Positions 1 through 10,177 of a DNA stretch of 50,700 nt are shown here, piece by piece. How positions within the stretch are numbered: position 1 is the stretch's first letter; each line of letters begins with the position of its first letter. The notes beneath the pieces were generated by a model, which searched no databases, was not told the origin of the DNA, and was given only the letters and a program-made list of their open reading frames with translations. The position numbers were made by a program, and so were the translations under genes. Source of the DNA: Gammaproteobacteria bacterium (GTDB lineage Bacteria; Pseudomonadota; Gammaproteobacteria; Steroidobacterales; Woeseiaceae); the NCBI GenBank assembly GCA_029863125.1, contig JAOTWB010000017.1, positions 1-50,700 on the forward strand. The letters are read 5' to 3'.

Positions 1-258
1 CACTCGGTCATGTGGGCGTCGCGCCCGCCGGTCGTGTACTGGAACTCGGTGACGATGCGCTGCCTGCAGGCCGTGCGCAAACTGCAGGGCAGCGGCGTCG
101 GCGTGTTTTTCACGATCGACGCAGGTCCGCAGGTGAAAGCGATTTGCATGCCCGAACACGAACAGGGGGTTCGCGCGGCGCTGTCTGCAACCGAGGGTGT
201 CAAGGACATCATGGTGACGGGTCTCGGCAATGCCGCGCGACTCGTGGATGTTTCGTGA
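1..258 (+). CDS. mvaD: diphosphomevalonate decarboxylase, C-terminal part
   Basis: This is the last 85 residues of a mevalonate diphosphate decarboxylase, which converts mevalonate-5-diphosphate, ATP-dependently, to isopentenyl diphosphate in the cytosol. The start lies outside the window. The fragment shows the family's C-terminal signature: a PPVVYWN segment followed by FFTIDAGPQVKAICMPE (compare the usual FTIDAGPNV), then the final GLGNAARLVD. Its TGA stop overlaps the GTG start of the next kinase gene, so the two are probably translationally coupled. The assignment is strengthened by the next three genes, which supply the preceding and following steps of the same pathway. Confidence 0.9.
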   Translation, partial: HSVMWASRPPVVYWNSVTMRCLQAVRKLQGSGVGVFFTIDAGPQVKAICMPEHEQGVRAALSATEGVKDIMVTGLGNAARLVDVS

Positions 259-1226
259 GCGGCATGCTTGCCAGTGCACCGGGAAAGCTCGTGTTGTGCG
301 GCGAGTACGCCGTGCTGGACGGTGCGCCCGCTGTCTGCATGGCCGTCGATCGTCGGGCGACGGTCAGGGTAACGGACGCCGACGGCAGGTGGCACCGGGT
401 TTCGGCGCCCGGTTACGCGTCCACGGAAGGGCGGTTTCGCGCTGACGGCAAATGCATCGACTGGCTTCAGGGCAAGGATCACTACCGGGTCGTGGACGCG
501 GTGTGGCGTTCGATCGGGCCGGTGGATGAAGGTCCCCTGTCGATCGCGCTGGATACAACAGCGTTTTTAGACGGGGCGTCCGGGAAAAAAATCGGCATTG
601 GCTCAAGTGCAGCACTGACGGTCGCGCTGGCGGCCGCATTAACGCACTCCGGCGACGTGCTCGAAAGCGCTTTGTACGCCCACCGGTTATTGCAGCGGGG
701 TGCCGGCAGCGGCGTCGATGTCGCGTGCAGCGTGAGCGGAGGACTTGTCGAATATCGCATGCAGGGGGCGGCGGTGTTGTCGCTGGGCTGGCCCGCCGGG
801 CTGGCGTACCGGGTGATCTGGACCGGCGTGCCCGCCAGTACACGCATGAAGCTCGACAAACTCGAAAAGAGCGGCCGGCGGACATCGAGGTGCGCGCTGT
901 TCGACGCGGCCGAAGACATGGCCAATGCGTGGCGGTCGGCAGCAACCGTGATGGGTCAGTTCCCGGCTTATATAGAGGTGCTGCGCAACTTCAGTGTTGA
1001 CCATGATCTCGGCATATTCGATGCTGGCCACGATCGGCTCGTAACGGAGGCTGCCGCTGCGGGACTGGTTTACAAGCCCTGCGGCGCCGGCGGCGGCGAC
1101 GTCGGTATTCTGCTGGGCGACAGTGACGAGCAGTTGGACGATTTCATGACGGGACGGCAAGCATCCGGCCGCCGGGTGCTCGGCTGCGAACTGGAACCCG
1201 ACGGCGTTTTGCTGGAGCGATGTTGA
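255..1226 (+). CDS. mvaK2: phosphomevalonate kinase (GHMP family)
   Basis: GHMP-superfamily kinase of about 323 residues. It begins with ASAPGKLVLCGEYAVLDG, the amino-terminal GHMP motif. It has the ATP-binding loop KIGIGSSAALTVALAAAL, a GVDVACSVSGG segment and a glycine-rich carboxy-terminal motif GAGGGDVGILLGD. It is called phosphomevalonate kinase rather than mevalonate kinase because the KxGxGSSAA form and GEYAVLDG resemble the ERG8 group, and because a mevalonate kinase domain is present in the next gene. The reading frame stays open upstream, but it is only plausible as protein from GTG 255 (overlapping the mvaD stop) or ATG 264. It overlaps the next gene by 7 nt. Confidence 0.85.
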   Translation: MSGMLASAPGKLVLCGEYAVLDGAPAVCMAVDRRATVRVTDADGRWHRVSAPGYASTEGRFRADGKCIDWLQGKDHYRVVDAVWRSIGPVDEGPLSIALDTTAFLDGASGKKIGIGSSAALTVALAAALTHSGDVLESALYAHRLLQRGAGSGVDVACSVSGGLVEYRMQGAAVLSLGWPAGLAYRVIWTGVPASTRMKLDKLEKSGRRTSRCALFDAAEDMANAWRSAATVMGQFPAYIEVLRNFSVDHDLGIFDAGHDRLVTEAAAAGLVYKPCGAGGGDVGILLGDSDEQLDDFMTGRQASGRRVLGCELEPDGVLLERC

Positions 1227-3433
1227 ACGATTCCCGCATAGCAGGTCTCTACAAACTGAATGTTACGGAGCGTATCGAAGCGCTCCGGCGGCAGGGCTGG
1301 CTGTCGCGCGCTGACGCCGAGCGATTGCGCGACGGTCGACAGGTGCTGTCGAGCGTTGCTGCCGACAAGATCATCGAAAATGTAGTCGGTGTTTTTGGCT
1401 TGCCGTTTGCCATTGCGCCAAATTTCCAGGTCAACGGTCGCGACTACATGGTGCCGCTGGTCGTCGAAGAGCCCTCGATTGTCGCGGCACTCAGTGGCGC
1501 GGCGAGGCTCGCCCGCAGCAGCGGAGGTTTTCAAGCCAGCTGCGAAGAGTCGCTGCTGGCGGGACAGGTGTACGTCACAGGCGTGGCAAATCCTGATGCC
1601 GCGTTGCAGATCCTGCAGTCTGAAAAGGCGGCGCTGCTGGATGCGGCCAACGATGTCCATCCCCGATTGAGTGCGAGGGGTGGCGGCGTTCGCGACCTCG
1701 ACGTTTGCTTGCTCCAATTACCCGACGGCACGCCGTTGATTCGGGTGCATCTGCTTGTCGACACCGTTGATGCCATGGGTGCGAACCTGGTCAACACGAT
1801 TTGTGAGGCAGTTGCACCGACGATTGCAGGACTGTGCCGGGGTGACGTGTCGCTGCGGATCTTGTCAAACCTGGCGGATCGATCCGTCGTGACGGCACGC
1901 GTTCGCTGCCGTTCGAGCGATCTCGCCGGCAGTGGTTTTGATGGTGAAATGGTTCGGGATGCCATTGTGATGGCAAACAACATTGCGCTGGCCGACCCGC
2001 ACCGCGCCGCAACGCACAACAAAGGCATAATGAATGGCGTCGACGCGCTTGCTATTGCAACCGGCAATGACTGGCGGGCGATCGAGGCGGGCGCGCATTC
2101 GTTTGCCGCAATAACCGGACAATACCTGCCGCTGACGCGATGGACTGCCTGTGAGGGTGGCGACCTGCTGGGTGAGATATCGATACCGCTCAAGATCGGT
2201 ACCGCTGGCGGCACGCTGGACGCCAATCCGGCAGCAGCGCTGGGTCTCGCAATAACAGGCGCAGAATCATCCGGGGAGCTTGCGCTGCTGATGGGGGCGG
2301 TCGGCCTGGCGCAAAACTTTGCCGCCCTGCGGGCTCTGGCAAGCAGCGGGATACAGGAGGGGCACATGAAACTGCACGCCCGCAGCGTGGCCGCCGCTGT
2401 CGGCACGCCGGATGCGTATTTCGACGAAGTGGTAGCCCGTCTGGTCGATAGTGGCGAAATCAAGCGCTGGAAAGCGGAGGAAATTCTGCAGCAAGTAGTC
2501 ACGCCGAAGGTCCCTGAGACAGCACCGAACGCAACCGCAGCCGGCAAGGTAATACTGTTCGGCGAGCATGCTGCTGTGTACGGTCGCCACGCCCTGGCCC
2601 TGCCCATCCCGGACGCGGTCAGCGTGGTCGTTGCATCTGCCGGGACCGTGACGTCTCTCGACATTCCAAGCTGGGGAATCGTCGGGGAACTGAACTTCGA
2701 CGATCCACAGGGAATAGGTGCTGCCATTGCCCTCATCCTGGATCAACTCGATATCCGCGGAGCCAGTTTCTCGATAACCGTGGATTCGAAGTTGCCGAGG
2801 GCCATGGGACTCGGCTCGTCCGCGGCGATCGCGGTTGCCGTGACCCGTGGTATTTGTGATGTCATGCAGCTGGCGGTCGATAACGAACGCATCAATGCGA
2901 TTGCCTTCGAGTGCGAAAAACTCGCGCACGGGACGCCCTCCGGCGTCGACAATACGATCTCGACCTACGCCGAGCCCATGGTGTTTTGCAACGATGGAAC
3001 CCTGCGAATCGAGACACTGAAGCTGGCGGAAATCCCGCCGATTGTCATCGCCTGCAGCAGCACAGTGGGGCTGACAAGTGAACAGGTTGCGGGCGTCAGG
3101 GCGCGCTACGAGCGGGCAACGCAGCGCTACAGCGCGCTGTTCGATGAGATTGACCGTATCAGCCGGGCAGGGGCAAAACTGCTGCAGGCGCGGAACTATG
3201 AGGAGCTGGGCCTGGCGATGAATGTCTGTCACGGGCTGTTGAACGCAATAGAGGTATCGACGCCCGAGCTTGAGCGTATGGTTACGCTCGCGCGGCAAGC
3301 GGGCGCGGCCGGAGCGAAGCTGACCGGTGGCGGTGGCGGTGGTTCGATCGTTGCGCTTTGTCCTGAGGCGATGGACAGCGTGCAAAGCGCTTTCCGGCAG
3401 GCCGGTTACAGAACACTGATACTGAAGCAATGA
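1220..3433 (+). CDS. mvaA-mvaK1: HMG-CoA reductase (class II) / mevalonate kinase fusion protein
   Basis: One uninterrupted 737-residue protein carries two consecutive MVA enzymes. Residues about 1-425 are class II HMG-CoA reductase. They contain ENVVGVFGLPFAIAPNFQVN and VVEEPSIVAA, with predicted catalytic Glu83, Lys268 (THNKGIMNG), Asp284 (ATGNDWRA) and His382 (EGHMKLHARS), matching Glu83/Lys267/Asp283/His381 as I recall them for the Pseudomonas mevalonii enzyme. Residues about 440-737 are a mevalonate kinase: AGKVILFGEHAAVYGRHALA, PRAMGLGSSAAIAVAV (about 526-541), HGTPSGVDNTIS (570-581) and a final KLTGGGGGGS loop. A short linker near 426-439 joins them. All key residues of both halves are present, so both are probably active, taking HMG-CoA to mevalonate-5-phosphate. 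Overlaps with both neighbours indicate one operon. Confidence 0.95.
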   Translation: MLNDSRIAGLYKLNVTERIEALRRQGWLSRADAERLRDGRQVLSSVAADKIIENVVGVFGLPFAIAPNFQVNGRDYMVPLVVEEPSIVAALSGAARLARSSGGFQASCEESLLAGQVYVTGVANPDAALQILQSEKAALLDAANDVHPRLSARGGGVRDLDVCLLQLPDGTPLIRVHLLVDTVDAMGANLVNTICEAVAPTIAGLCRGDVSLRILSNLADRSVVTARVRCRSSDLAGSGFDGEMVRDAIVMANNIALADPHRAATHNKGIMNGVDALAIATGNDWRAIEAGAHSFAAITGQYLPLTRWTACEGGDLLGEISIPLKIGTAGGTLDANPAAALGLAITGAESSGELALLMGAVGLAQNFAALRALASSGIQEGHMKLHARSVAAAVGTPDAYFDEVVARLVDSGEIKRWKAEEILQQVVTPKVPETAPNATAAGKVILFGEHAAVYGRHALALPIPDAVSVVVASAGTVTSLDIPSWGIVGELNFDDPQGIGAAIALILDQLDIRGASFSITVDSKLPRAMGLGSSAAIAVAVTRGICDVMQLAVDNERINAIAFECEKLAHGTPSGVDNTISTYAEPMVFCNDGTLRIETLKLAEIPPIVIACSSTVGLTSEQVAGVRARYERATQRYSALFDEIDRISRAGAKLLQARNYEELGLAMNVCHGLLNAIEVSTPELERMVTLARQAGAAGAKLTGGGGGGSIVALCPEAMDSVQSAFRQAGYRTLILKQ

Positions 3434-4014
3434 ATGACAATCACAGGATCGTATCCTCCGAAAGCGAGGAGCTGATACTCGTCGATAGCGACGACAACGA
3501 AATCGGCTACCTGTCCAAAGCGGGCTGCCACGATGGAGGCGGCGTTTTGCATCGTGCGTTTTCGCTGTTCCTCTTTAACGATGCCGGCGAGCTGCTGCTG
3601 CAACGGCGTAGCGACAGCAAGCGCCTGTGGCCCGGCTACTGGTCGAATAGCTGCTGCAGCCATCCGCGCCGCGGCGAGTCCATGGAAACCGCGACGAAGC
3701 GACGGCTAAGCGATGAGCTGAATATCGAGACGGACCTGGACCACGTGTACTCCTTTTGCTATACGGCGAAATTTGATGCCGCCGGCTCCGAGAACGAGCT
3801 TTGCCATGTCTATCTCGGGCGCATAACGGGTGACGTGCAGCCAAACGACAGCGAAATCGCGGGCATCCGCTTTATTTCCGGTGATGCGCTGGGCGAGGAA
3901 CTATCTCGTTGCCCGGAGCAGTTCACGCCGTGGTTTAAACAGGAGTGGCAGGAACTCGTCGGGAACCATCGCGACCAGCTGGCGCATTACTGTACGCCGG
4001 TCGGAACAGAATAA
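3430..4014 (+). CDS. idi: isopentenyl-diphosphate delta-isomerase, type I
   Basis: Nudix-fold type I IPP isomerase of 194 residues (the E. coli enzyme has about 182), interconverting IPP and DMAPP. Visible features are the metal ligands His34 and His41 in the HDGGGVLHRAF segment, the catalytic Cys76 in NSCCSHPRRGE (E. coli NSVCGHP), a Nudix-like stretch ETATKRRLSDELNI, and the acidic ENELCHVY motif near residues 121-128 that supplies the second catalytic acid. The start codon overlaps the fusion gene's stop (ATGA), making it the last gene of the mvaD-mvaK2-mvaA/K1-idi chain. I see no clear terminator before the convergent HMG-CoA synthase gene. Confidence 0.93.
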   Translation: MNDNHRIVSSESEELILVDSDDNEIGYLSKAGCHDGGGVLHRAFSLFLFNDAGELLLQRRSDSKRLWPGYWSNSCCSHPRRGESMETATKRRLSDELNIETDLDHVYSFCYTAKFDAAGSENELCHVYLGRITGDVQPNDSEIAGIRFISGDALGEELSRCPEQFTPWFKQEWQELVGNHRDQLAHYCTPVGTE

Positions 4015-4131: not shown

Positions 4132-5610
4132 TCAGGCGATGAACTTGTAGTACTCGATCCCAAGATCGGAAAAGTGGCGCTCGTCGGTGCCGCCGACGCG
4201 CTCAATAACGAACTCATTGCTGGGCACATAATCGAGGCCGGTTACCCGGCGCCCGTCATGCAGCGCCTCGTACTGCTCGCGATTGAGGTCGACGGCGAAC
4301 TGCATGGCGTCACTGAATCCGATCTTCGCCGTCGCTTCGCGCCAGCCGTCCGCCATGAAGAAAGGAATAACCTCCGCCGCATCGCCACTGCCGTAGCCGA
4401 GCGTAAGGACCTCTTCCCCTGCATCAAGCGAGTTTTCATCCAATGCCTGCTCGAAGCCTGCCGCCATCCAGGCCGGCAAAGCCGCCGTGTAGAGGTTGCC
4501 GAGGTCGAGCATCGTGTCGCTGCCCAGCGCCATCTTGTCGAGAATTTCCTTGCGGAAATGCCGTGACGCGCGGAAAGCACCCAGTGCCGCCATGGTCAGT
4601 GGGTAGGCTTCGTATTGCAGCGCTTCAGGCGTTGCGAGCGCTGCGACCGCGGGCTTGCTGAGCATCTCCGTTTGCACGGCCTCGATATCAACGCCCGCTT
4701 CGTAGCAATAAGACGCCAGCTCTGCGCGGTCTTCCGCGCTCCCCCGGCTAAGCGCAAACAGGTAGGAGACGGCCCAGCCGGTTTCGGGCATGCGCCGATA
4801 CGGGCGATGCATGAAAATCGCTCGCAGTGAACGCAGGTAGGCGCTGGGATTCAGCCTGCGCTTTACGTACATGTCGTTGAGCGCATGCAGCGTCTCGTCG
4901 ACATAGCAGGTCGTCGAGTACTTGCCGTTGAACACCGGGAAGTCCTGCACCTGGTGCGACTCCGAGCGATCCTGGCCGCAGAAGCGCAGCATCGGCTTGC
5001 GGAAGTCCATGATGCGGTAGTCTGACGCCGACCCCGAACCGACGAGGTCGACGACTGCGAGCTTTGGTTCTTCCTCGAGCAGCATCGCAACGGCGCCTGC
5101 ACCCTGCGTCGGCTCGCCCGAGCTGCCGCGTGCGTACTCGGCGATATCGGCGCACACGACAATGGCCTGGCTGCCCGCACCGTCCAGGGCCAGGTGACGG
5201 ATGGCGCCTTTCATGCCGTAAACGCCGCCAAGACAGGCATGCTTGAATTCCGGGACTTCGCAGCTGCGTGATATCGGCGGCTTGCCGCGTTCGACCAGAG
5301 CAGCGTCGACCATACCTTTGACGACAATAGCGCCAGCGGAATTATCGGTGCTGGATTCGGTACCGAGGCCCAGGAATTTTACCCGGGCCGGGTCTACGCC
5401 ATACTGGTCGATCAGCCGCAGTACGGCATTCGCCGCCATCGTATAGACGCTGTGATCGGGCCCGCGAACGCGAAAACTGCGCCCCACGACCTCACGAATT
5501 TTTGGCCACTGGTTGCCCGTCCAGTCGCACCAGTCCTCCAGCCACACCCGGTACGGCGGGACATAGGCCGCGAGGCCGCTAATACCGATGGATTTGTTGC
5601 GTGTAGGCAT
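4132..5610 (-). CDS. mvaS: hydroxymethylglutaryl-CoA synthase
   Basis: Condenses acetyl-CoA with acetoacetyl-CoA to HMG-CoA, supplying the reductase half of the fusion encoded convergently. Recognised by the start GISGLAAYVPPYRV, the GTESSTDNSAG segment with the general-base Glu, the nucleophilic Cys in EFKHACLGGVYGMKG, the family signature GEPTQGAGAVAML, the His of FMHRPYRRMPETG, LGNLYTAALPAW and LGYGSGDAAEV. At 492 residues it is clearly longer than the roughly 390-residue enzymes of Gram-positive cocci. The extra length lies mainly in the C-terminal half. ATG 5610 was chosen because family homology begins right after it; ATG 5661 and TTG 5670 are in-frame alternatives. Confidence 0.9.
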   Translation of the reverse strand: MPTRNKSIGISGLAAYVPPYRVWLEDWCDWTGNQWPKIREVVGRSFRVRGPDHSVYTMAANAVLRLIDQYGVDPARVKFLGLGTESSTDNSAGAIVVKGMVDAALVERGKPPISRSCEVPEFKHACLGGVYGMKGAIRHLALDGAGSQAIVVCADIAEYARGSSGEPTQGAGAVAMLLEEEPKLAVVDLVGSGSASDYRIMDFRKPMLRFCGQDRSESHQVQDFPVFNGKYSTTCYVDETLHALNDMYVKRRLNPSAYLRSLRAIFMHRPYRRMPETGWAVSYLFALSRGSAEDRAELASYCYEAGVDIEAVQTEMLSKPAVAALATPEALQYEAYPLTMAALGAFRASRHFRKEILDKMALGSDTMLDLGNLYTAALPAWMAAGFEQALDENSLDAGEEVLTLGYGSGDAAEVIPFFMADGWREATAKIGFSDAMQFAVDLNREQYEALHDGRRVTGLDYVPSNEFVIERVGGTDERHFSDLGIEYYKFIA

Positions 5611-5674
5611 GTTTCTTGGCTGAAGTTGACGTAGCCCGGCGATTTTAGTGTTCCCGGCCATATCACTCAACCAT

Positions 5675-6199: not shown

Positions 6200-7597
6200 T
6201 CAAACGGCAAACAGCGCGAACAAGAATGCGCCGAGCAGCGTCAGGCTTGCGCCTATCGAGTAGCAGAACACCAGCGTAACGTACTTCATGAAAGTCAGAA
6301 TTCTCCCCTGACGATAAACTTCGCGCATCGCCATGTACAGGTATACAGGTATGTAAAGTGACGCCGCAACCAGCACCAGGTTGGCGACAGCCCCCGGAAC
6401 GCCTGACAGCGCCGCGATTCGGGCGAACAGTATTTGCAGGATCAGTATCAGGAAGAAAAAAGCATGGTAGTGAATGACGAACAGCAGGTGCTCGACGAAG
6501 TACCGTCGCGACAGCGGGTAAAGTGTTTTCAGAACCAGTGCCATGAGCGGCAGTAGCACGATCAGCGCAACCGGAATGTTGTCCAGCATCAGGCCGATGA
6601 GCGTCTTTCCCTGGTCTGCGCCGATGCGCTCGCAAACCCGCTTGAGGCGTTCGGGCGTCAGCCGTTTTTGCAGCCATCCGGGCAGGTCGGCAACGTCATC
6701 GTCGTCGACGAGGCATTCCCCTGTCTCCTCGTCGATCTTGATATTGAAGCCTGCATTGATATTGACCCTGCGATCTTCGCCGGAGACCGGATCCTGCGTG
6801 TCTGCGCCTTCCGCACGATTTTGAGGGCTCTCGGCGCCGACAATGATGCCCTCCTGTGCAAGTTCGTCGAGGATTTCCTGTTTCGCGGCCGCAGCCTCTG
6901 CGGCTGTCTCGGCGATTTCTTCGGGTGTCTGCTCGGGCTCGGGTTCGAACAACAGGCTCAGGTCATCGCGGGGATCAAAAAACGCGACGACAAAGAAGAT
7001 GACGCTGAGCACGAGGTAGGTGCGAAACGGCGGCATGTAGCGCGTACGTCGACCCTCGAGGTAGTCGCGAGTCAGGCGACCGGGACGTGACATGAGCGGT
7101 ATCAGGGTCCGCCACAGGCGCGAATCGAATTCCAGGAGGTCGCCAAAGGCTTCGCTTATGAGCTGCCAGAGGCTGATCAGGCGGCTGCTGGCCCGCTGCC
7201 CGCAGTTTCCGCAGTACTGGCCCCGGAGACGTGTCCCGCAATTGAGACAATCAGGGCCGTCGGTCGTTGCCGGCAGGCCCGGGGCATCATCTTCGCGCAG
7301 CGTGCGGCCTGAGACTTTGACCGCCGCACCGAATTGCTGCGCGACTGCGGCTTCGGTATCGACGAAAAAGCCATCCAGCAATTCGTTGAGAGCGCCGTCG
7401 TCGTTACACAGGAACTGGCAGATCCTGGTCGTAGTGTCTTCCGATTTTCTGCCGGGACCGAAGACACGCACGTCGGCGATGCCTTCCTTCTGCAGGGACC
7501 GTTCGGCCAGTTCGTCAAGCCAGCGCCCAAACTCCTCGGCCCGTTCCTGCTCAACCGAGAACGTCAGTTCATACAGCGGCCCGGCTTGCGCGGTCAT
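6200..7597 (-). CDS. DUF4286-DUF3667 zinc-ribbon membrane protein
   Basis: A 465-residue protein with two parts. Residues 1-105 resemble DUF4286, a small ferredoxin-like-fold domain (YELTFSVEQERAEEFGRWLDE). After a linker comes a zinc ribbon CLNCGTRLRGQYCGNCGQ, the hallmark of DUF3667, then SLWQLISEAFGDLLEFDSRL and PGRLTRDYLEGRRTRYMPPF. A first membrane segment (YLVLSVIFFVVAFF) leads into an acidic, soluble loop of about 130 residues, and four or so further membrane helices form the C-terminus. DUF3667 proteins are uncharacterised. The gene begins 9 nt after the fadE stop codon, so it probably forms an operon with fadE. Confidence 0.75.
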   Translation of the reverse strand: MTAQAGPLYELTFSVEQERAEEFGRWLDELAERSLQKEGIADVRVFGPGRKSEDTTTRICQFLCNDDGALNELLDGFFVDTEAAVAQQFGAAVKVSGRTLREDDAPGLPATTDGPDCLNCGTRLRGQYCGNCGQRASSRLISLWQLISEAFGDLLEFDSRLWRTLIPLMSRPGRLTRDYLEGRRTRYMPPFRTYLVLSVIFFVVAFFDPRDDLSLLFEPEPEQTPEEIAETAAEAAAAKQEILDELAQEGIIVGAESPQNRAEGADTQDPVSGEDRRVNINAGFNIKIDEETGECLVDDDDVADLPGWLQKRLTPERLKRVCERIGADQGKTLIGLMLDNIPVALIVLLPLMALVLKTLYPLSRRYFVEHLLFVIHYHAFFFLILILQILFARIAALSGVPGAVANLVLVAASLYIPVYLYMAMREVYRQGRILTFMKYVTLVFCYSIGASLTLLGAFLFALFAV

Positions 7598-7606
7598 GGG
7601 CCAGGG

Positions 7607-10177
7607 TCAGGATTGCTTGGTTTTTTTCTTGCTCGAAGCCTTCCTGCTGGCAGCTCGTTTTTTGGTGCCCGGTTTCTGGCCGGCGGGTTTTTTCTTCGCC
7701 GTCGTTTTTGGCGGAGCTGATACAGAACTCTCAACAGGTGCCCGGGCCAGTTCGTCGCTCGTGAAATCGTCCACGCCCAGCAGCGCCTCGACCTTGCCGT
7801 GGTACTCGCGCAGCGCGCGCGCCTCGGCTTTGCTGATGACCTGGGCCTTTTCTGCTTCATCGATTTGCAGGCCGAGATAGTCAGAGTGGATGAGACCTTC
7901 CTTGCGGGCCTGGCGCAGTCGCCGTTCGAGTGGCAGGTGCTGCTTTGTCAACTCCAGGGCTTCCTGCAGCAATCCCAGTGGATTGCCCGGTTCGAGCGTC
8001 GTGTAAGCGAGTTCGCTGAGACGTTCCCGCGACTCGCCGGGCGTTGTGACAAGTTCGACTACCCGGGCTGCGATTTCATCAGACGGGGCTGAATAAGTGC
8101 GGCCTCGCGGGAAAATAAACATGCGCAGCAGCATGGCGACCGGACGATTCGGGAGGTTGCGCAGGAACGCGTGCAGTGATTCCTGCGCCTGGTACATCAG
8201 CGTGCGCACCGACCACTCTACCAGCGGCAGGTCAGACGCTCGACGCCCCTGGTTCTCGAAGTGCTTGAGTACGGTGGATGCCAGGTACATCGAACTCAAG
8301 ACATCGCCGAGGCGCGCGGACAGGAGCTCGCGCTTTTTCAGTCCACCACCGAGCGTCAGCATCGCGAAATCCGAGGCGAGCGCAAAATTAGCGCTGTAAC
8401 GGTTAATGTTCTGGTAATAGCGGCGCGTGGGTGTATTCAGCGGCACACGGCTGAACTTGGCGTGAGTCAGCGCGAGGAAAAACGAACGCGCCAGGTTGCT
8501 GATCGCGTATCCGATGTGACCAAACAACGCATCGTCGAACTCGATCAGGCCACGATCATGATCTTCGTCGCCGGCCGCGTGCAGTTCTCTCAGGACAAAC
8601 GGGTGGCAGCGAATCGCTCCCTGACCATAAATGATGAGACTTCGCGTGAGGATATTCGCGCCTTCCACCGTGATCGCAATCGGCGTTGCCATGAAACCAC
8701 GACCGAGATAGTTATTCGGTCCCATCATGACGCCTTTGCCGCCGTGCACGTCCATTGCATCGTTGGCTACCTTGCGGCCCATCTCGGTGCAGTGGTACTT
8801 GAGAACAGCCGAAGGAACCGCTGGTTTCTCGCCCTGGTCGATCGCGCCGGCGGTTACCGCCACCGCGGCGTTCATAATATAGGTGTGTCCGGCGATCCGC
8901 GTCAGGGCCTCGCCAACACCCTCGAAGTTCGCGATCGATGTGTTGAACTGCTTGCGAATGACCGCGTAGGCCCCTGACGCATAACTCGCCGCCTGTCCCC
9001 CGCCCGATGCCGTCGACGGCAGCGTAATTGCGCGCCCGACCGAGAGCAGCTGTACCAGCATCTTCCATCCATTGCCGGCCTGTTCCTGGCCCCCGATGAT
9101 GGCGTCGAGTGGAACGAAGACGTCTTTACCCGAAGTGGGACCATTCTGAAACGCAATCGAGAGCGGATTATGACGGCGGCCGATTTCCACTCCCGGTGTG
9201 TCCGCCGGGACCAGGGCAGCGGTTATGCCGTATTCATCCTTGTCGCCGATCAGGTGGTCCGGATCATACAGCTTGAACGCCAGACCCAGAACCGTAGCGA
9301 CCGGCGCCAGCGTGATGTAACGCTTGTCCCAGTTGAGTCGGATACCGACAATGGTCTTGCCTTTCCACGTGCCCTTGCAGACGACGCCGCTGTCGATAAG
9401 GGCGGCCGCGTCCGAACCGGCCTGCGGCGAAGTCAGCGCGAAACAGGGAATCTCGGTACCTGCAGCGAGGCCCGGCAGATAGCGGTCTTTCTGTTCTTCG
9501 GTGCCGTAGTGCAGCAGTAGTTCCGCCGGCCCCAGCGAATTGGGAACACCGACCGTCGATGACGCAGTCGGGCTGCAGCTGGCGAGTTTCGTTATGACCG
9601 CGGCGTTTGCGTAGGCGGAGAACTCGAGGCCACCGTACTGTTTGGGAATAATCATCGCGAAAAACTTGTTCTCGATAATGTAGTCCCACACATGTTTGGG
9701 CATATCGGCCAGTTCGTGGCAGATCTCCCAGTCATCCAGCATCCCGCAAAGCTCCTCACAGGGACCGTCCAGGAATGCCTGTTCCTCGTCCGACAATTTC
9801 GGTGCTGGAAACGACATGAGTTTGTCCCAGTCCGGCATTCCCGAGAACAACTCGCCGTCCCACCAGACGCTGCCTGCCTCGAGCGCTTCGCGTTCGGTAT
9901 CCGACATTGACGGCAGCATCTTGCGGTAAACCTCGAGGAGCGGCCTGGTAATTTTCTCGCGTCTTACTTCGACGAAATTCGGAATGACCATCAGTCCGAA
10001 CAAGAGGGTCAGGAAGAGCTTCCAGAGCACGAAACCGTCGCCGAAGATCCAATAGGCGAGCAGAGCAACGCCTGCGGCAATTGTCGACGTGCGCAGGTCG
10101 ATGCGCCGGTACGCGAGAAATATTCCACCGCCTACGAACAGCAGCAGCCAGGACAAACTTACAATCAGACCGGACAA
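7607..10177 (-). CDS. fadE: acyl-CoA dehydrogenase FadE
   Basis: First step of fatty-acid beta-oxidation: FAD-dependent oxidation of acyl-CoA to enoyl-CoA. The 856 residues follow the E. coli FadE plan. There is a hydrophobic N-terminus of about 70 residues, then WWDGELFSGMPDWDKL, EEQAFLDGPCEELC, FFAMIIPKQYGGLEFSAYA, GVPNSLGPAELLLHYGT, IPCFALTSPQAGSDAA and IAITVEGANILTRS. The start is TTG 10177, preceded by GAGGT about 8 nt upstream. The oddity is the tail: about the last 40 residues are almost all Lys, Ala, Pro, Ser and Arg, resembling a histone H1-like tail, which E. coli FadE lacks. Confidence 0.93.
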   Translation of the reverse strand: MSGLIVSLSWLLLFVGGGIFLAYRRIDLRTSTIAAGVALLAYWIFGDGFVLWKLFLTLLFGLMVIPNFVEVRREKITRPLLEVYRKMLPSMSDTEREALEAGSVWWDGELFSGMPDWDKLMSFPAPKLSDEEQAFLDGPCEELCGMLDDWEICHELADMPKHVWDYIIENKFFAMIIPKQYGGLEFSAYANAAVITKLASCSPTASSTVGVPNSLGPAELLLHYGTEEQKDRYLPGLAAGTEIPCFALTSPQAGSDAAALIDSGVVCKGTWKGKTIVGIRLNWDKRYITLAPVATVLGLAFKLYDPDHLIGDKDEYGITAALVPADTPGVEIGRRHNPLSIAFQNGPTSGKDVFVPLDAIIGGQEQAGNGWKMLVQLLSVGRAITLPSTASGGGQAASYASGAYAVIRKQFNTSIANFEGVGEALTRIAGHTYIMNAAVAVTAGAIDQGEKPAVPSAVLKYHCTEMGRKVANDAMDVHGGKGVMMGPNNYLGRGFMATPIAITVEGANILTRSLIIYGQGAIRCHPFVLRELHAAGDEDHDRGLIEFDDALFGHIGYAISNLARSFFLALTHAKFSRVPLNTPTRRYYQNINRYSANFALASDFAMLTLGGGLKKRELLSARLGDVLSSMYLASTVLKHFENQGRRASDLPLVEWSVRTLMYQAQESLHAFLRNLPNRPVAMLLRMFIFPRGRTYSAPSDEIAARVVELVTTPGESRERLSELAYTTLEPGNPLGLLQEALELTKQHLPLERRLRQARKEGLIHSDYLGLQIDEAEKAQVISKAEARALREYHGKVEALLGVDDFTSDELARAPVESSVSAPPKTTAKKKPAGQKPGTKKRAASRKASSKKKTKQS

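Follow-up and report, generated by a model that had tools for sequence, protein, structure and literature searches.

A recurrent and apparently undescribed single-chain fusion of class II HMG-CoA reductase and mevalonate kinase

This study identified a gene that joins a class II HMG-CoA reductase (HMGR) to a mevalonate kinase (MVK) in one chain, a real, recurrent and apparently undescribed fusion built from two known families. It was found in the window, which here means the whole stretch of 50,700 nucleotides analysed (contig JAOTWB010000017.1 of assembly GCA_029863125.1). The product is very probably a bifunctional biosynthetic enzyme, with predicted activities that would carry HMG-CoA through mevalonate to phosphomevalonate on one chain; it provides the only HMGR match and the only mevalonate kinase over cut-off in its own genome, the assembly of which is 74% complete.

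Results

The fusion gene and its domains

The features at this end of the window are listed below, with the basis of most assignments in brackets.

1 to 258, plus strand: mvaD (diphosphomevalonate decarboxylase gene), 3' end only; the contig begins inside the gene
264 to 1226, plus strand: phosphomevalonate kinase-like GHMP kinase, below the TIGR01220 cut-off; start at ATG 264 or GTG 255
1220 to 3433, plus strand: HMGR-MVK fusion gene, 737 amino acids (open reading frame, Pfam, NCBIfam)
1220 to 2500, plus strand: residues 1-427, the class II HMG-CoA reductase half, with catalytic E84, K268, D284 and H382 (NCBIfam, solved-structure alignment)
2351 to 2500, plus strand: residues 378-427, the reductase's C-terminal flap, predicted as three helices and bearing H382 (structure model)
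2501 to 2530, plus strand: linker, residues 428-437, pLDDT <50 at 429-433 (structure model)
2531 to 3430, plus strand: mevalonate kinase part, residues 438-737, with K443, S534, E566, D577 and glycine motif 703-708 (NCBIfam, alignments)
3430 to 4014, plus strand: type I isopentenyl-diphosphate isomerase (IDI) (NCBIfam)
4132 to 5670, minus strand: HMG-CoA synthase-like protein, facing the operon; below the TIGR01835 cut-off, above that of Pfam

The frame at 1220-3433 ran uninterrupted from ATG to stop (737 codons), with no stop or frameshift at the junction of the two halves. Both NCBIfam equivalogs scored over their cut-offs, TIGR00532 (HMG-CoA reductase) at residues 3-387 with 374.6 bits against 259.95, and TIGR00549 (mevalonate kinase) at residues 440-713 with 232.3 bits against 163.05. 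In Pfam, the 737-residue chain gave HMG-CoA_red, GHMP_kinases_N and GHMP_kinases_C above their cut-offs and no thiolase domain, so the protein is not of the MvaE type. The proposal of the initial annotation, that two mevalonate-pathway enzymes share one frame, was therefore borne out, and the domain search it called for found both of them; the break near position 2530 that it named as a possible refutation was absent, and the uninterrupted junction recurs in other assemblies. Against solved structures, the reductase half (the first 427 residues) aligned nearly end to end with class II reductases, and the kinase half aligned over its own length with mevalonate kinases, while none of the structure matches listed was a solved chain spanning both. 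On the strand opposite the gene, long minus-strand frames at 1534-2742 and 2270-3574 had no Pfam match at E 1e-5 and are probably shadow frames.

Active-site residues, cofactor motif and selection

Both catalytic sets had been described as intact, and the alignment upheld this: E84, K268, D284, H382, K443, S534, E566 and D577 were invariant in all 73 distinct fused frames, a set from which copies (of the window gene or of another locus) and frames truncated at the end of a contig or locus were excluded. Twelve added rows brought the alignment to 85, among them the duplicates L203 (the same gene as L002, from genome G032) and L212 (of L044) and a wrong-strand frame, L214, which was the sole row to depart at these eight positions. 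The four reductase residues were assigned by alignment to the Pseudomonas mevalonii enzyme, with D284 taken to be the catalytic Asp. In the kinase half, K443 and D577 are presumably the active-site Lys and Asp, S534 and E566 the Mg-binding Ser and Glu, and 703-708 the glycine motif, of which G703 and G705-708 were invariant in the 73 frames and G704 was not. For class II HMGR, Glu-83, Lys-267 and His-381 are named in PMC10070635. A proline preceding the GK motif was found in 17 of 39 separate kinases sampled, versus 0 of 73 fusions.

In the cofactor helix, His147 replaces the NADH-determining Asp146 of P. mevalonii, and this His was present in 72 of 73 fusions; R153 was found in 82 of 85 rows (including the two duplicates and L214). 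An NADPH-type motif for this helix, (H/Y)xSxxxR, is given in PMC13370337, and the fusion's H147-x-R149-xxx-R153 agrees with its first and last positions and differs in the middle one. In view of this helix, the 'degradative' name of the NCBIfam family is probably misleading here.

Estimates of dN/dS relative to locus L083 were ~0.14 for the reductase and ~0.12 for the kinase, and relative to L084 ~0.13 and ~0.12, pairs more distant than these approaching saturation. At the level of sequence, these values indicate that purifying selection acts on both halves.

Distribution and gene neighbourhood

A search of a genome collection matched at least 592 stretches, the best 80 of which were analysed; because the best-matching loci were chosen, this sample is tilted to fusions. 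Both halves lay in one frame in 42 of these 80 loci (two of them, L042 and L043, cut by contig ends) and in separate frames in 12, and 26 had no kinase in the locus. The search for the same architecture in other genomes, which had been suggested as a check, thus succeeded. Five phyla appeared in the titles of the fused loci, namely Pseudomonadota, Calditrichota, Acidobacteriota, Planctomycetota and Actinomycetota. Metagenome bins that occur singly, those of Planctomycetota and Nakamurella among them, could be mis-binned. Named strains were represented by one Dyella and three Cryobacterium records. The fusion recurs across several phyla and is no peculiarity of its own genome, a point absent from the initial annotation.

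In wider samples the fusion is rare. Within the class, 22 of 229 genomes gave any match and six held the junction in one frame, including the source genome and a contig-end fragment (G239). Within the phylum, 11 of 299 genomes matched and one was fused, namely the source genome itself. Matches were found in 58 plasmid records. None reached 80% query coverage, and in the ten rows listed it was the reductase part that matched.

Several open frames among the loci were longer than expected. Those at L041:5248-8283 and L014:5422-8211 begin long before the reductase does, which is probably overhang in GC-rich DNA. At L081:1765-4056 (764 codons) and L185:1-2412 (804 codons) a mevalonate kinase occupies the C-terminal end, and the first 460-500 codons matched no NCBIfam family at E 1e-10; the HMGR of L081 is likewise preceded by ~400 codons without a family assignment. 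The extra codons of L081 and L185 may not be real extensions but overhang of the open frame.

The fusion gene of the window shares an overlapping operon with mvaD and the phosphomevalonate kinase-like and IDI genes: the end of the phosphomevalonate kinase-like gene overlaps its start by 7 nt, and the start of the IDI gene overlaps its stop by 4 nt. Among the 42 fused loci, a phosphomevalonate kinase stood directly upstream in 34, and 34 had a decarboxylase no more than 2.5 kb upstream; 29 had an isomerase no more than 600 nt downstream, and 14 an HMG-CoA synthase anywhere in the locus. In these counts the neighbour rule missed L041, where the kinase does stand upstream, and only 160 bases of locus in L009 and 592 in L030 precede the fused frame. 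Farther along the window, a DUF3667 protein (6200-7597, minus strand) adjoins a bacterial-type acyl-CoA dehydrogenase (7607-10177).

Carriers and the MEP pathway

Sixty genomes of the order, the source genome included, were sampled. The fusion was carried strongly by 48, and a 49th (G058) had a weak kinase match only. The junction lay inside one open frame in 47 of the 48 carriers (confirmed separately for G001, G032 and G033), and in carrier G006 a contig end cuts the gene inside HMGR. The search for MEP enzymes covered two, IspH and DXR (type II DXR excepted); IspH was found in 10 genomes, DXR in 10, and either of them in 11. Within this sample the two sets were mutually exclusive, with IspH or DXR in 0 of 48 fusion carriers and the fusion in 0 of 11 genomes with IspH or DXR. 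Genome G026 (73% complete) matched neither the fusion nor IspH nor DXR. It holds two GHMP-kinase-type matches on one contig, and since the first of these begins 110 bases from the contig end, the fusion could lie just beyond it.

Many related carriers thus seem to be without the usual bacterial isoprenoid route, and because the two MEP enzymes searched are lacking, carriers of the order probably depend on the mevalonate route. The same absence, together with the single HMGR and the single over-cut-off kinase of the 74% complete source assembly, makes the fusion the probable route to phosphomevalonate in carriers.

Origin of the fusion

A single branch separated 54 fused rows from 61 others in the rebuilt HMGR tree (SH-aLRT 100) and from 39 others in the MVK tree (SH-aLRT 96). 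The nearest outside rows were Myxococcota, with support of 91 in the first HMGR tree and 95 in the MVK tree, although both trees were quick searches without bootstrap and several of the Myxococcota kinase rows are long branches. Eight of the 30 genus-level loci L083-L112 entered the trees.

In the first HMGR tree, the fused/separate label needed five changes because rows L157, L161, L202 and L154 had been marked separate. The loci of the first three contain an incomplete fused gene, whereas L154 comes from G006, where the contig end cuts it. The HMGR tree was rebuilt without these four and without the long rows L131 and L132. The MVK tree was built without L127, L150, L160 and L200; L145, the other kinase copy of L127, was omitted as well, leaving that genome unrepresented. 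Several independent fusions were not supported, as the fused rows formed one group in both half-trees.

Locus L037 (Myxococcaceae) offers a likely picture of the state before fusion. At 4750-4930, unfused HMGR and MVK genes lie next to each other and share a frame; only the HMGR stop and three further bases come before a GTG able to start the kinase. A single origin of the gene, by joining of neighbouring HMGR and MVK genes, with later spread between phyla is most likely; one fusion in an L037-like pair, followed by interphylum transfer, would be the simplest reading of these quick trees.

An independent fusion in Lokiarchaeota (L078) was also considered and was not supported, the HMGR and MVK frames being parted by a stop. 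In a check of 24 genomes, 19 matched (that of L078 included), with HMGR-sized open frames of 383-451 amino acids. At L078:7060-7240 the HMGR frame ends just past GHMKLHAR, and the kinase frame follows directly after the stop, with no ATG seen before the GK motif.

Predicted structure, flap and linker

Class II HMG-CoA reductase is a dimer with a shared active site; the structure prediction here was of the monomer. The model of the window protein had a mean pLDDT of 87.3 and a pTM of 0.62, with a low-confidence stretch at 429-433, and its halves matched reductase and kinase structures, respectively. The pLDDT and pTM values and the weak stretch together suggest that the folds of both halves are sound and that their mutual placement is unfixed. 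In the model, helices 378-393, 398-411 and 416-427 form the three-helix C-terminal flap. The junction lies between the end of the last helix at 427 and the start of a strand at 438, giving a linker of about 10 residues (428-437, nucleotides ~2501-2530) instead of the roughly 14 estimated previously.

The linkers of the fusions vary in both length and sequence: M383 and the kinase motif are 64 residues apart in the window protein and 30 to 129 apart across the fusions. Four distinct relatives (L002, L005, L204 and L205) have only 30-34 residues from the M383 position to the kinase motif, the residues having been lost after the retained catalytic GHMxLHAR motif. By alignment, these four lack 30-34 residues of the flap and linker that connect the catalytic-His helix to the kinase. 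In the model of L002 (pTM 0.58), the first flap helix, 374-389, is alone left, and pLDDT falls below 50 over 384-401. According to PMC10070635, class I reductases likewise keep only the first flap helix, and the flap of class II enzymes shuts over the active site and shifts configuration for product release. Since the kinase follows this closing and opening flap, it would sit on the moving part of the reductase.

Discussion

Natural fusions that include a class II HMG-CoA reductase are not without precedent. MvaE of Enterococcus faecalis is also a single-chain mevalonate-pathway fusion (PMC10070635, PMC13001223), but its reductase carries the upstream thiolase as an N-terminal partner, whereas the reductase of the window protein carries the downstream kinase as a C-terminal one, placed beyond the flap. 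IspDF of the MEP pathway is likewise a natural bifunctional isoprenoid-precursor enzyme (PMC13001223), although it belongs to another pathway and joins non-consecutive steps. Among the rows listed, the class II reductases of P. mevalonii, Streptococcus pneumoniae and Delftia acidovorans showed 43-47% identity to the reductase half (TMt up to 0.96) and share its catalytic residues, but they are stand-alone chains; the P. mevalonii enzyme, moreover, is of the NADH type, whereas the cofactor helix of the fusion has His147 and R153. The mevalonate kinases of Methanosarcina mazei and Leishmania major (28-33% identity to the kinase half, TMt up to 0.87, rows listed) are also stand-alone, unlike the fused kinase. 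The initial annotation knew of no characterised fusion of this kind; likewise, none was described among the open-access matches listed, and the portions of PMC13001223, PMC11052028, PMC3857490, PMC4921024 and PMC13370337 that were seen make no mention of one.

In the proposed scheme, the reductase half would convert HMG-CoA to mevalonate, NAD(P)H donating the two hydrides, and the kinase half, which is attached where the mobile flap ends, would phosphorylate mevalonate with ATP. Fusion would supply the two activities in 1:1 amounts and give a high local concentration of mevalonate, and the ATP-driven kinase would pull the reductase reaction, which is reversible in class II enzymes. Reversibility and flap motion have been described for other class II enzymes (PMC10070635); both activities, the NADPH preference and the kinetic pull of the fusion are what we infer.

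What the cell gains from the fusion can be read in several ways. The reading we lean towards, by a little, is that it provides co-expression and fixed stoichiometry only, the linker being a passive tether and the halves working as if apart. Linkers variable in length and sequence are consistent with this, as are the ordinary family folds that both halves keep in the models. However, overlapping operon genes already supply co-expression, and neither tree placed a separate-gene row inside the fused group, which suggests, within the sample, some benefit of staying fused.

Another reading is channelling, as the initial annotation supposed: the kinase would receive mevalonate from the reductase before it could mix with the bulk, and selection for this would have favoured the fusion. 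The two consecutive steps do share one chain, the kinase hangs on a flap that opens for product release (PMC10070635), and in four distinct relatives less sequence separates the kinase from the catalytic-His helix. Yet the claim was not borne out by the models, in which the linker is of low confidence and pTM is 0.62 for the window protein and 0.58 for L002, and a spacing of 30 to 129 residues argues against one rigid, conserved tunnel. With linkers varying so widely, tight channelling need not hold generally, and we regard channelling, together with selection for it, as rather unlikely. More speculative still, and in our estimate doubtful, is that the kinase serves as a functional piece of the reductase lid, moving at each opening of the flap and taking mevalonate as it is released; in the flap-deleted relatives, the kinase body would then replace the two lost helices, and the lid would be the next enzyme of the pathway.

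A degradative role, with the reductase running in reverse to catabolise mevalonate, is very improbable. It is suggested by the NCBIfam name of TIGR00532 and by the presence of the P. mevalonii enzyme among the close solved relatives, but the partners are biosynthetic, both fused and in the operon, the carriers of the order sample gave no IspH or DXR match, and His147 (72 of 73) in place of the NADH-type Asp, together with R153, comes near the NADPH motif reported in PMC13370337. An assembly or sequencing artefact joining two neighbouring genes, conceivable because a miscall could mimic a fusion where, as in L037, they share a frame with one stop between, is refuted by the recurrence of the fused frame in 42 of the best 80 loci (the named Dyella and Cryobacterium strains included) and in genomes of the order, and by the clustering of fused rows in both half-trees.

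As it is built around a step called rate-limiting in the mevalonate pathway (PMC13001223), the fusion may serve pathway engineering. The natural series of three-helix and one-helix flaps, with long and short linkers, suits study of the effects of tethering on a lid-gated enzyme. In its own order the fusion marks genomes with neither of the two MEP enzymes searched, and more widely it provides a handle on the movement of the mevalonate pathway between phyla.
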